From positions 1 through 6,451 of the forward strand of contig JAHEFL010000106.1 of NCBI GenBank assembly GCA_024640205.1: DNA of 6,451 nucleotides, given 5' to 3'. This document shows positions 2,454-5,662 of the stretch, in pieces. The DNA is from Flavobacteriales bacterium (GTDB taxonomy: Bacteria > Bacteroidota > Bacteroidia > Flavobacteriales_F > PHOS-HE28). The translations under genes and the position numbers were made by a program. A model generated the notes under the pieces. The model searched no databases and had not been told where the DNA came from. It worked only from the letters and a program-made list of their open reading frames with translations. How positions within the stretch are numbered: position 1 is the stretch's first letter; each line of letters begins with the position of its first letter.

Positions 2454-3395
2454 CTACGCCGTAACGCTGTTCATCTTGTCCAGGACCTCCATCACCTCTT
2501 TCACCGCTTTCGCACTGGTGTTCAAGGCCTCCATTTCATCGGCGTTCAATTTCAACTCCAGGACCTTCTCGATCCCTTTGCGCCCCAGAATGACAGGAGC
2601 GCCCATGTATACGTCCTTCAGCCCATATTCACCTTGAAGCCATACGCAACAAGGGAACACCCGCTTTTGGTCGCGCACGATCGCCTCCACCATCTGGGCG
2701 GCAGCGGTACCTGGCGCGTACCATGCACTCGTGCCCAATAGGTTCACGATCTCTCCGCCACCCTTCTTCGTCCGCTCTACGATCGCATCCAATTCCTCCG
2801 CACCGATCAACTCCGTCACCGGGATCCCACCGACAGTTGTATAGCGGGGAAGGGGCACCATGGTATCCCCATGTCCGCCCATCAGCACGGCTTGAATGTC
2901 CTTCGGGCTCACATTCAGCGCTTCGGCCAGGAAGGCACGGTACCGCGCAGTATCCAAGATACCCGCCATGCCGAACACGCGTTGGCTCGGGAACTTACTG
3001 TTCAGGAAAGCGCAATAGGTCATCACATCGAGCGGATTGCTCACCACGATAATGATCGCATCAGGGGAGTGCTTCACCACATTCTCCGTTACACTCTTCA
3101 CGATCGCCGCATTTGTGGCGATCAAGTCGTCACGGCTCATACCCGGCTTCCGAGGCAGCCCGCTCGTTATCACCACCACATCACTACCCTCGGTCCTGGT
3201 ATAATCATTGGTGGAACCCGTCAACCGGGAGTCGAACAAGTTGATCGGTGACGTTTGCCAGATATCCAGGGCCTTGCCTTCAGCGTAGCCCTCCTTGATG
3301 TCAAGAAGCACCACTTCGTTGGCCAATTCCCAACGGGCCACGGCATCAGCACATGTTGCGCCTACGTTGCCGGCCCCAACCACAGTGACTTTCAT
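2454..3395 (-). CDS. mdh: NAD-dependent malate dehydrogenase, LDH-like type
   Basis: The 313-aa cytoplasmic enzyme interconverts malate and oxaloacetate with NAD in the TCA cycle. The Rossmann motif GAGNVG is at residues 7-12 and the NAD-ribose-binding acidic residue is D32 (LLDIKEG). The active-site loop SGLPRKPGMSRDDL (78-91) carries R82, at the position that separates malate (Arg) from lactate (Gln) dehydrogenases, and R88. N120 lies in SNPLD, D148 and R151 in GILDTAR, and the catalytic base H175 in MGGHGDTMVP. Length is normal for the bacterial LDH-like MDH group (about 305-320 aa), and no key residue is missing. The ATG at 3395 sits two codons before the first beta strand, so the start is secure. 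No Shine-Dalgarno sequence is visible. It is divergent from the sigma-factor gene and convergent with the FG-GAP gene, with no operon partner in the window. Confidence 0.97.
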   Translation of the reverse strand: MKVTVVGAGNVGATCADAVARWELANEVVLLDIKEGYAEGKALDIWQTSPINLFDSRLTGSTNDYTRTEGSDVVVITSGLPRKPGMSRDDLIATNAAIVKSVTENVVKHSPDAIIIVVSNPLDVMTYCAFLNSKFPSQRVFGMAGILDTARYRAFLAEALNVSPKDIQAVLMGGHGDTMVPLPRYTTVGGIPVTELIGAEELDAIVERTKKGGGEIVNLLGTSAWYAPGTAAAQMVEAIVRDQKRVFPCCVWLQGEYGLKDVYMGAPVILGRKGIEKVLELKLNADEMEALNTSAKAVKEVMEVLDKMNSVTA

Positions 3396-3517: not shown

Positions 3518-3540
3518 CGATGGAGGCATCCTTTTGAGAA

Positions 3541-4239
3541 ATGATGCGTCTCAAGCATTGGATGGTCGTACCTACAGCCATATCCGACGATACTACGACC
3601 GGCGAGAGGACCGCAGGGGGGCGACGTCCTCCATTGGTCATCACATGGCCCGGGACCCCGAATGCGTTGGAAAAAGCCTATTCAGAACTTATTGATGGCT
3701 GCATTTTGAATGATCGACGCAGCCAGCAGAAAGTGCACGAACTGTTCTATGGGAAGATGATGGCCGTTTGCCTGCGGTACACGAAGAATACCGACCAGGC
3801 CAAGGACATCCTGCAGGATGGGTTCATCAAGGTATTCCGGAGCATTGAGAAGTTCAATCGGGAAGGTTCCTTTGAAGGATGGATCCGGCGCATCGTTGTC
3901 AATACAGCGATCGATCATTTCAGGCGATCCAAGAATTCGTATCTCCTTCTCGGGGAGGAAAGGAGCATAGAGGATTTTGGTGATGATGATGAGGCGGACA
4001 CATGGACGGACGAAGGTCACGAGAATGACCTGGATGTTAAACCTGCCGATGTCATCAATGCCATGCAGAAACTGACACCGGCATACCGAACAGTGTTCAA
4101 CTTATATGTATTCGAGGAATTGACCCATAAAGAGATCTCAGAACTTTTGGGGATCAACATCGGCACTTCGAAAAGCAATTTGGCGAAGGCCAAGAGGAAT
4201 TTAAGGAAACTATTGACCAAGGAGGATCCGCTCCGTTAA
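3541..4239 (+). CDS. ECF-type RNA polymerase sigma factor (sigma-70 family)
   Basis: The 232-aa protein should direct RNA polymerase to a specific promoter set. Region 2 spans about residues 48-132: the segment DQAKDILQDGFIKVFRSIEK (85-104) and then FEGWIRRIVVNTAIDHFRRS (111-130) are the classic ECF core-binding and -10-recognition helices. Region 4 spans about 170-226, with LTPAYRTVFNLYVFEELTHK followed by the helix-turn-helix EISELLGINIGTSKSNLAKAK. There is no region 3, as expected for an ECF factor. The linker between the domains is strongly acidic (14 of residues 139-165 are D or E). Residues 1-45 have no counterpart in typical ECF factors, and no in-frame ATG lies between codon 8 and region 2. 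The start at 3541 (or codons 2 or 8) fits the promoter-like element 24 bases upstream, but a TTG start at codon 43 is not excluded. It is followed 11 bp later by a membrane protein that probably controls it. Confidence 0.93.
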   Translation: MMRLKHWMVVPTAISDDTTTGERTAGGRRPPLVITWPGTPNALEKAYSELIDGCILNDRRSQQKVHELFYGKMMAVCLRYTKNTDQAKDILQDGFIKVFRSIEKFNREGSFEGWIRRIVVNTAIDHFRRSKNSYLLLGEERSIEDFGDDDEADTWTDEGHENDLDVKPADVINAMQKLTPAYRTVFNLYVFEELTHKEISELLGINIGTSKSNLAKAKRNLRKLLTKEDPLR

Positions 4240-4250
4240 CTGAATAGACG

Positions 4251-5519
4251 ATGATCAAAGGGAAAGACGGCTTCGACCAGTCCTTGAGGAATATCCTCGA
4301 GCCCTATGAGGTGCCTTATAATTCGGCCGATTGGGCCCAGTTGGAAAAGCATCTCGACGAAGGGAAGGGCGTAGGACGATGGGGGTCGGCCACCGGGCTG
4401 ATAGCATTGTTGCTTGGTGGCACCCTGGCGGTCGCTACCACGGTGCATCTGATGATCCAAGAAACGGAAATGGAGGACGGAACGGGCATTGCTCAGCCTG
4501 CGCTGTTCGACCAGCGTCCGTACGCAGGTCCAAAGCTCGATGATCCGAACTCTGTGGTCGGCCACCCGGCGATCGAGGAACCGACAGCAACGGTTGTGGA
4601 GAAGAGTGCCCTGCAGCCTTCGAAGCAACGCTCCCTTACCAGTGGAACACTGCGATCCAATGACGAGGCTTTGAACGAGGGATCACCGAGCGACCTGAAC
4701 AGAACAGAACCTCCGACCGCGGTTACCACCAAGCCGGATGATGCAGCGATCACCGCTAGTATCACTGAGGGTTGTCCGGGTACCACCGTGGATTTTGCAA
4801 TGAACAATGTACCTGAGGATGGGATTTTCCTGTGGAATTTCGGGGACGGCAGTTTCTCCAACAAACCGAAGCCTTCACATACCTTCTCCAAGCCGGGGAC
4901 CTTTGAGGTCATGCTCTCCCATTCATCCATGAGCGGGGGCAAATTCGCGAACAAACCTGTCTCTGACCGTATCGTGATCCACGAGGTTCCCGATGCGTCC
5001 TTCCAATTCATTAAACGGGAGTTTGAGAACAGCATCCCATCGGTCCATTTCGAGAACCGTAGCGTAGGCGGCAAAACCTACCACTGGGATTTCGGCGATG
5101 GGTCGAGTTCCACGGTTCCGCATCCGGACCATGTGTACAAGCAGAAGGGCAATTACACGATCACATTGACCACCAGTAATTCCAATGGTTGCGTTGATCG
5201 CGCAGAGCGCAACCTCAGGATCGAATCGGACTACAACCTATTGGCCACCAGTACCTTCTCGCCGAACGGCGATGGTTTGGAGGACACGTTCATTCCTGGA
5301 GCATTACGCATCTTGAGCGCACGTTTCCACATGTCGATCTTTGATGCCCGAACGGGCGAACTCGTGTACGAAACGAACGATGCCCAACGCCCATGGAACG
5401 GCCGGATCGGGAATCGCGGTGAGCACTGTAGCCCCGGCGAGTATCTGTGGATGGTGGATATGAAGGATGGCGAAAGCTTGGGAGGATCCTACAACGGAAG
5501 TTTGAGCCTTGTGCGTTGA
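4251..5519 (+). CDS. Probable anti-sigma-like membrane protein with two PKD domains and T9SS type B C-terminal domain
   Basis: This is a 422-aa protein. Residues 1-43 (FDQSLRNILEPYEVPYNSAD then WAQLEKHLDEG) resemble the short cytoplasmic segment, with a conserved tryptophan, that precedes the membrane helix in Bacteroidota proteins encoded next to ECF sigma factors. Residues 47-69 form one transmembrane helix; K33, K39 and R43 before it predict an N-inside, C-outside topology. No cleavage site or lipobox follows. Residues 70-165 are a low-complexity linker rich in P, S, T, D and E. PKD domain 1 (about 165-245) has WNFGDGS at 195 and HTFSKPGTFEV at 210. PKD domain 2 (about 248-325) has WDFGDGS at 279 and HVYKQKGNYTITL at 294. 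Residues 328-422 are a gliding-motility-associated/T9SS type B domain (TFSPNGDGLEDTF at 335, W382-NG, PGEYLW at 395). The 11-bp gap after the sigma gene and the terminator after 5519 indicate a two-gene operon. The anti-sigma role is inferred from position and the N-terminus; it could instead be only a surface protein with a signal anchor. Confidence 0.85.
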   Translation: MIKGKDGFDQSLRNILEPYEVPYNSADWAQLEKHLDEGKGVGRWGSATGLIALLLGGTLAVATTVHLMIQETEMEDGTGIAQPALFDQRPYAGPKLDDPNSVVGHPAIEEPTATVVEKSALQPSKQRSLTSGTLRSNDEALNEGSPSDLNRTEPPTAVTTKPDDAAITASITEGCPGTTVDFAMNNVPEDGIFLWNFGDGSFSNKPKPSHTFSKPGTFEVMLSHSSMSGGKFANKPVSDRIVIHEVPDASFQFIKREFENSIPSVHFENRSVGGKTYHWDFGDGSSSTVPHPDHVYKQKGNYTITLTTSNSNGCVDRAERNLRIESDYNLLATSTFSPNGDGLEDTFIPGALRILSARFHMSIFDARTGELVYETNDAQRPWNGRIGNRGEHCSPGEYLWMVDMKDGESLGGSYNGSLSLVR

Positions 5520-5537: not shown

Positions 5538-5570
5538 AAAGAGCCCGGCAGTGCCGGGCTCTTTATTTTT
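5538..5570 (+). terminator. Rho-independent terminator of the sigma/PKD operon
   Basis: A hairpin with outer arm AAAGAGCCCGG (5538-5548) pairs with CCGGGCTCTTT (5554-5564) around a small loop of CAGTG, and is followed by TTTATTTTT ending at 5570. It begins 18 bases after the TGA at 5517-5519. Strong GC pairing and the T-rich tail make this a confident terminator. It separates the operon from the CUB/PKD gene starting at 5663. Confidence 0.9.
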
Positions 5571-5571: not shown

Positions 5572-5662
5572 CCCCATTGGGCAACCCGCGCAGCCCCTCT
5601 CGCATCATAGGGAGCGAAGGGCATTCCCTGTTGAAGGATAACCCCGTCCTGGGATAGTAGAA

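Follow-up and report, generated by a model that had tools for sequence, protein, structure and literature searches.

The window described here is a stretch of 6,451 nucleotides that makes up contig C379 of a 2.6 Mb Flavobacteriales genome assembly (556 contigs, 83% complete). ORF calls and Pfam/NCBIfam domain searches identify five genes. Positions 95-2380 encode an FG-GAP protein whose tail is of T9SS type A, and a malate dehydrogenase gene adjoins it on the minus strand (2454-3395). These are followed, on the plus strand, by the gene for an ECF sigma factor (ORF 3541-4239), a gene for a 422 aa membrane protein that is a likely anti-sigma factor (4251..5519; referred to here as the partner), and the gene for a PKD protein that is cut by the contig end (5663..6451). 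The partner gene begins 11 bp after the sigma stop codon. No PorP/SprF gene was found in the window; the genome as a whole has 25 matches to TIGR04131 and 11 to PorP/SprF. The gene order FG-GAP, malate dehydrogenase, sigma factor, partner, large PKD protein is retained across much of the genus, and in four other families the genes for the sigma factor, the partner, and a large PKD-cluster protein have stayed together.

The sigma and partner genes are consistently paired. Of 34 further genus genomes searched, 32 contain a strong match to the partner; the two genomes that have no match, G012 and G030, are represented by assemblies that are 76% and 72% complete. Thirty-three regions were compared, 29 from the 32 genus genomes (G006, G015, and G024 were left out) and four from other families. 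In all 33, an ECF sigma ORF lies directly upstream of the partner on the same strand, with a gap of -29 to +75 bp. Similarly, a sigma gene is present at all 17 of the 80 named-record loci where the match reaches the partner N-terminus; nine of these 17 loci lie on contigs from genomes that had been counted before. Among named records, the nearest are metagenome-assembled genomes of uncultured Flavobacteriales and Bacteroidota, and the same pair is also present on record L356. The two-gene arrangement on which the initial annotation was built is therefore conserved among relatives.

The upstream gene is assigned as an ECF sigma factor from its match to TIGR02937 (96.3 bits) and from above-cut-off matches to Sigma70_r2 and Sigma70_r4_2. 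Thus, sigma-70 regions 2 and 4 were both matched, and no region 3 match is listed in the Pfam and NCBIfam results. A predicted ECF-type promoter, GGCATCC-N15-CGTCT (motif 1; 3525..3551, plus strand), lies upstream of the gene, with its boxes at 3525-3531 and 3547-3551. An exact copy of GGCAWCC-N15-CGTCT precedes the sigma gene at 30 of 34 loci; allowing spacings of 14-16 gave a count of 31 of 34. In shuffled sequences, exact matches were found in 0 of 680 cases and matches with one mismatch in 5 of 680. The loci with inexact copies are L056, L072, L073, and L075, which have 2-4 mismatches at spacing 15; L073 has one mismatch at spacing 14. At one locus, L283 (genome G017), there are two motif 1 sites 82 bp apart upstream of a single sigma gene. 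The position of the promoter has a consequence for gene annotation. Motif 1 overlaps the ATG at 3541, where the initial annotation had placed the start of the sigma gene, and the ATG at 3562 lies just 3' of the -10 box, in the same place as the start in five other genomes. Hence, 3562 fits better and is probably the real start, given the promoter position and the relatives; the sigma factor would then be encoded by 3562..4239 (plus strand) and have 225 aa. Because motif 1 stands before the sigma factor's own gene, we infer that it is read by this sigma factor rather than by another ECF sigma factor.

What does the partner look like? Its predicted layout draws on domain searches, hydropathy, and an AlphaFold2 model built from a 42-sequence alignment (mean pLDDT 78.9, pTM 0.58). 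The N-terminus is a helical domain predicted to bind the sigma factor (residues 6-37; 4266..4361), modeled as two helices at residues 6-19 and 25-37. A single transmembrane helix is predicted by both AlphaFold2 and hydropathy at residues 48-71 (4392..4463); it begins 47 residues from the N-terminus and looks like an anchor in the model. This is followed by a predicted disordered tether (residues 72-165; 4464..4745) of ~90 disordered residues, with pLDDT mostly <50 over residues 75-150. From residue 166 onward there are beta domains modeled with pLDDT mostly >90: two PKD domains (about residues 166-243 and 251-324; 4746..5222), and a domain resembling the C-terminal domain (CTD) of T9SS type B substrates (residues 330-422; 5238..5516), which was recognized by its matches to CHU_C and TIGR04131. 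A Foldseek search against the PDB returned PKD, adhesin, Ig-like, or FnIII-type structures among the 50 matches listed, with no T9SS signal among them. All of these features are encoded on the plus strand. The initial annotation, which described a sigma gene followed after 11 bp by a membrane protein with one helix, two PKD domains, and a CTD, is borne out by the ORFs, the domain searches, and the AlphaFold2 model.

Two familiar types of sigma factor regulation were considered and set aside: the partner has no zinc-finger anti-sigma domain at E <= 1, and Pfam and NCBIfam searches found no domain of FecR/TonB-type regulation. Indeed, no named anti-sigma domain of any kind was matched in the partner at E <= 1 in Pfam or NCBIfam, and the first 45 residues matched no family in either database. 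This raises the possibility that the partner is a structural cell-surface protein that is simply co-transcribed with the sigma gene. Two lines of evidence make this very improbable. First, the partner has the same layout as Dma2 of Bacteroides thetaiotaomicron, which is described as having a sigma-binding N-terminus, a membrane helix, a disordered tether, and a terminal outer-membrane domain (PMC13088901). The genes for the described Dma1 and Dma2 proteins likewise adjoin an ECF sigma gene, of the ECF21 family, whereas in the partner two PKD domains and a CTD-like domain occupy the end at which Dma proteins are described as having a beta-barrel (PMC13088901). This agreement, which is one of described layout rather than of compared B. 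thetaiotaomicron sequences, suggests that the partner works like a Dma protein, with no claim that the two are the same. Second, relatives of the N-terminal domain are found behind ECF sigma genes, in proteins whose C-terminal parts are dissimilar.

The evidence for the second point comes from a profile of the N-terminal domain built from 28 aligned sequences of the partner family alone, in which F8, L16, and W28 (partner numbering) are invariant columns. In 296 genomes of the phylum, the profile has 12 matches at E <= 1e-3, and all 12 open a protein encoded directly behind an ECF sigma gene (11 of 11 once the window's own locus is removed). A second search, of 58 relatives at E <= 0.01, added ten further proteins, a short match at G007:C48 being left out; nine of the ten have an ECF sigma gene upstream, with L132 as the exception. 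In total, 22 loci with a match to the N-terminal profile were examined, and in 21 of them the match is preceded by an ECF sigma gene, which is evidence that residues 1-45 form a sigma-associated domain. This agrees with the anti-sigma-like N-terminus proposed initially; the N-terminal domain of the partner is predicted to bind the sigma factor and likely holds it inactive.

The 21 profile-matching proteins other than the partner have varied C-terminal ends. Matches to outer-membrane barrels are found in 12 (above cut-off only in L089, L090, and L130), and a CTD-like end in four (above the CHU_C cut-off in L127 and L129, below it in L084 and L088). Three have no convincing further domain, and one, cut by a contig end, was left unscanned. 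The remaining protein, from L126 (1644-3539, minus strand), ends in a PorP/SprF barrel (70.7 bits, cut-off 22.3). This protein is encoded behind an ECF sigma gene and combines several copies of the N-terminal domain, matched by the profile at three places, with a membrane stretch and the barrel. Copies of the N-terminal domain also appear by eye to be repeated before the membrane helix in the L085 and L130 proteins, as if these proteins could bind several sigma molecules.

The CTD-like domain sits close to the limits of the family to which it is related. It scores above the cut-off for CHU_C (PF13585; 42.6 bits, cut-off 27) and below that for TIGR04131, the T9SS type B model (30.4-33.7 bits, cut-off 35). 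Two sequence motifs, both defined from our own alignment, were used to compare it with ordinary CTDs. The first is RWG, whose place in the partner is occupied by ARTG (residues 366-369; 5346-5357). With a profile seeded with 11 RWG-bearing CTDs of this genome plus the CTDs found by TIGR04131, a combination that more divergent CTDs would escape, RWG is present in 22 of the 24 CTDs of this genome that are long enough to judge. The two exceptions are the partner and the protein from L175 on contig C385, both of which belong to sigma/anti-sigma-type pairs. A similar picture is seen in G010, a genus genome assembled as one contig: RWG is present in 37 of 42 CTDs, RYG, GWG, or KWG stands in three others, and the remaining two, which lack all of these, are again the anti-sigma-type proteins of the first family (that of the partner) and the second (that of L175). 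RWG is absent from all 38 relatives in the first family and from all 30 loci of the second, and it is found in 0 of 120 homologues among the matches listed of 1224. The second motif is the loop P[ND]xDG, present in the partner as SPNGDG. It is found in 32 of 38 first-family relatives, 16 of 29 full-length second-family proteins, and 106 of 120 homologues among the matches listed of 1224, compared with 20 of 22 ordinary CTDs in this genome and 30 of all 42 CTDs in G010. The loop motif is therefore less good than RWG at separating the anti-sigma families from ordinary CTDs. Loss of NGDG was also considered as a sign of a disarmed CTD, and it was dropped because just 10 of the 22 ordinary CTDs in the genome carry NGDG exactly.

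What does the absence of RWG imply? Paillat et al. (2025) describe five conserved type B motifs, each of which is needed for SprB secretion or for recognition by the shuttle, (PMC12618676); RWG may be one of the five. If so, a CTD-like end that lacks RWG is probably not secreted. The C-terminal domain of the partner is related through TIGR04131 and CHU_C to those of the type B substrates SprB and PG1035 (PMC9143113, PMC12618676). It differs from those substrates in falling below the TIGR04131 cut-off, in having no RWG, in being attached to a membrane-anchored N-terminus, and in that no shuttle gene was found in the window. The initial annotation had called the sensing end a T9SS client. That label is now doubtful, given the TIGR04131 score, the missing RWG, and the membrane helix close to the N-terminus; the retention of P[ND]xDG in most first-family relatives counts against the doubt.

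The CTD features other than RWG are largely kept, so the partner may yet be exported. In that case, the T9SS would carry the PKD domains and the CTD to the surface, where a PorP-like barrel would anchor them; with its N-terminus still cytoplasmic, the partner would span both membranes and sense surface contact or a polysaccharide. The CHU_C score, the conserved loop motif, the retention of the PKD domains across relatives, and the long predicted tether are all consistent with such an arrangement, as is the reported binding of the type B CTD proteins PG1035 and SprB to PorP-like barrels (PMC9143113). Nonetheless, an exported sensor is somewhat unlikely: RWG is missing in all relatives examined, TIGR04131 is matched only below cut-off, the loop motif is missing in seven of the eight named-record loci that are new, in that they do not belong to genus contigs included earlier (it is present in only one), and the membrane anchor would have to hold during translocation.

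The second RWG-less family has an architecture of its own. The protein from L175 (G000:C385) and its relatives, L176-L205, form a second ECF sigma/anti-sigma-type pair in which the partner ends in a CTD-like domain. The L175 protein has two related N-terminal stretches (by eye), a membrane stretch, and no PKD domain, and it was missed by the N-terminal profile in the window's own genome. The second-family protein is full length at 29 of 30 loci, and an ECF sigma gene adjoins all 29. In a tree of 86 CTDs, which is based on few columns, the two anti-sigma families are placed apart, and when the RWG columns are left out, the share of 200 bootstrap trees that unite them all is 0%. A single origin is not rejected by an AU test (p 0.254), and L129, counted with the first family, clusters with the second in the tree. 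The tree suggests that the two CTD families have separate origins.

The second family also has its own promoter motif, GGCAACY-N16-CATCA, at its sigma genes. The form GGCAACC-N16-CATCA is present with at most one mismatch at all 27 second-family sigma loci with an anchored start (of 30), and the promoters of these sigma genes are at least three mismatches from motif 1. An exact copy of this motif (motif 2; 5580..5607, plus strand) lies in the window, upstream of the neighboring PKD gene. Between the sigma/partner pair and that gene there is also a terminator-like hairpin of 12 pairs followed by a T run (5538..5564, plus strand). The region scanned contains three such sites compared with 2.7 expected in shuffles, and this one has the longest stem. 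With the hairpin in between and motif 2 in front, a single transcript running from the pair into the PKD gene was set aside as an explanation. Control of this gene by motif 1 was also rejected: the motif is found before 0 of 31 downstream PKD genes within two mismatches at spacing 15, and before some of them with 1-2 mismatches if spacings of 14-16 are allowed. Motif 2 is exact upstream of the PKD gene in the window and in L050 and has one mismatch in L054, which amounts to only 3 of 31 loci. Thus, in the window's subclade, the neighboring gene may answer to the second ECF sigma factor, which would cross-wire the two systems. The relatives of the neighboring protein carry an ordinary type B CTD, with RWG visible in the final 60 residues at 23 of 34 loci; at the other loci, the protein is cut or misassigned, or the end examined stops short of the RWG site.

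Which genes might the first sigma factor control? Six genus genomes were scanned with the pattern GGCAWCCN15CGTC. There is no bulk enrichment of motif 1 in these genomes (45 sites, compared with 84 for the reversed pattern), so weight was placed on groups of genes that recur across genomes. Genes behind 23 of the 45 sites form six cross-genome groups, compared with 4 of 30 control loci taken from the 84 reversed-pattern sites. The sigma gene itself is found behind the motif in all six genomes, and a gene for a secreted protein whose tail is of T9SS type A in five. An SprB-repeat protein, a DUF5684 membrane protein, and a nucleotide-sugar epimerase-like protein are each found in three genomes, and a possible outer-membrane protein with no Pfam match in two. 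The domain searches covered between one and three members per group, and the distance from site to gene is variable inside groups. None of the six groups contains T9SS machinery. The type A cargo family is present in 39 of 39 genus genomes, the window's own genome holding only a fragment at C369. Motif 1 lies upstream of the cargo gene with 0-1 mismatch at 23 of 30 loci (20 exact, three with one mismatch) and is missing at seven; the same criterion gave 1 of 600 in shuffles and 0 of 30 in gene bodies. Since motif 1 is common to the sigma gene and the type A cargo gene, the predicted regulon of this sigma factor likely includes T9SS cargo.

These predicted targets bear on a further alternative, in which the CTD-like domain has no link to the T9SS. 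It would instead be an Ig-like module, acquired on one or two occasions, and would respond to stress in the periplasm or to a ligand. The sequence drift of the CTD-like domain would be explained in this way, as would the other members of the N-terminal profile that end in outer-membrane-type barrels or in nothing, and the bulk motif 1 count gives no sign of a wide regulon. A general envelope sensor would not, however, be expected to have type A cargo and SprB-repeat proteins among its predicted targets, or a relative, such as the L126 protein, that ends in a PorP/SprF barrel, and we consider it unlikely. The initial link to the T9SS is supported by way of the predicted cargo targets, even though the client label attached to it is in doubt.

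There are precedents for ECF sigma factors tied to the T9SS. In Porphyromonas gingivalis, an ECF sigma factor controls T9SS genes, and an interaction between SigP and the response regulator PorX is reported (PMC4800418), and PorA, a CTD protein, is reported to affect the signal (PMC7712824). The PorXY-SigP/PorA system as described is thus similar in tying an ECF sigma factor to T9SS genes (PMC4800418, PMC7712824). It differs in that PorA is a separate surface protein, whereas the CTD-like part is here fused to a likely anti-sigma factor (PMC7712824). In Flavobacterium psychrophilum, an ECF sigma factor probably controls T9SS genes, and the SM6 promoters are reported before an ECF sigma/anti-sigma operon, gldN, porU, and rmlB (PMC9723704). 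Like motif 1, the reported SM6 promoters are of ECF type, have a CGT box at -10, and precede a sigma/anti-sigma operon; SM6 includes rmlB, and the motif 1 groups include a nucleotide-sugar epimerase-like protein (PMC9723704). Unlike the six motif 1 groups, SM6 as described covers T9SS machinery (PMC9723704).

What can be read directly from the sequences is the adjacency of the two genes, the order of the domains, the kinship of the N-terminal domain with other proteins encoded behind ECF sigma genes, the absence of RWG, and an ECF-type promoter motif that also precedes a T9SS cargo gene. Taken together, the partner can be read as a Dma-like anti-sigma factor in which the barrel has been replaced by a CTD, itself probably secretion-deficient, that serves as a periplasmic sensor. 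A mechanism can be proposed in which the sensor acts as dummy cargo. The short cytoplasmic N-terminal domain of the partner would sequester the sigma factor, and the disordered tether would allow the CTD-like end to extend through the periplasm to the side of the outer membrane. At that site, the CTD-like end would meet the T9SS components responsible for type B signals, either PorP/SprF-like shuttles or the translocon, and would not be exported. When a handling site is free, the CTD-like end would dock, and the tether would be pulled or the partner cut, releasing the sigma factor. Contact with the T9SS machinery would thus set sigma activity, and the released sigma factor would transcribe T9SS-linked surface genes as well as the operon to which it belongs. 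Whether docking turns the switch on or off is a guess. That an ECF sigma factor is held by a single-pass partner whose RWG-less periplasmic end is a non-secreted sensor working in this dummy-cargo fashion has, in our judgment, about an even chance of being correct.

A more specific version of the dummy-cargo mechanism concerns the supply of cargo. In the Flavobacteriales, a trans-envelope anti-sigma factor would have acquired a T9SS export tag, perhaps on two occasions, and the tag would have been disarmed; the captive dummy would compete for the shuttle or the translocon. Free secretion capacity would pull on the dummy, the sigma factor would be freed, and the genes for real cargo would be turned on, such that cargo synthesis is metered by the capacity for secretion. 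We put this forward tentatively, as an idea that is rather more doubtful than the mechanism on which it builds.

What would these arrangements mean for the Bacteroidota? The PorP/SprF barrel that stands in place of a secretion signal in the L126 protein suggests that sigma factors have been coupled to both halves of a known contact between cargo and shuttle. A likely anti-sigma factor with a relative of a secretion signal, together with a promoter motif that is defined and a cargo gene predicted as its target, makes it testable how Bacteroidota match the synthesis of cargo to the capacity of the T9SS.
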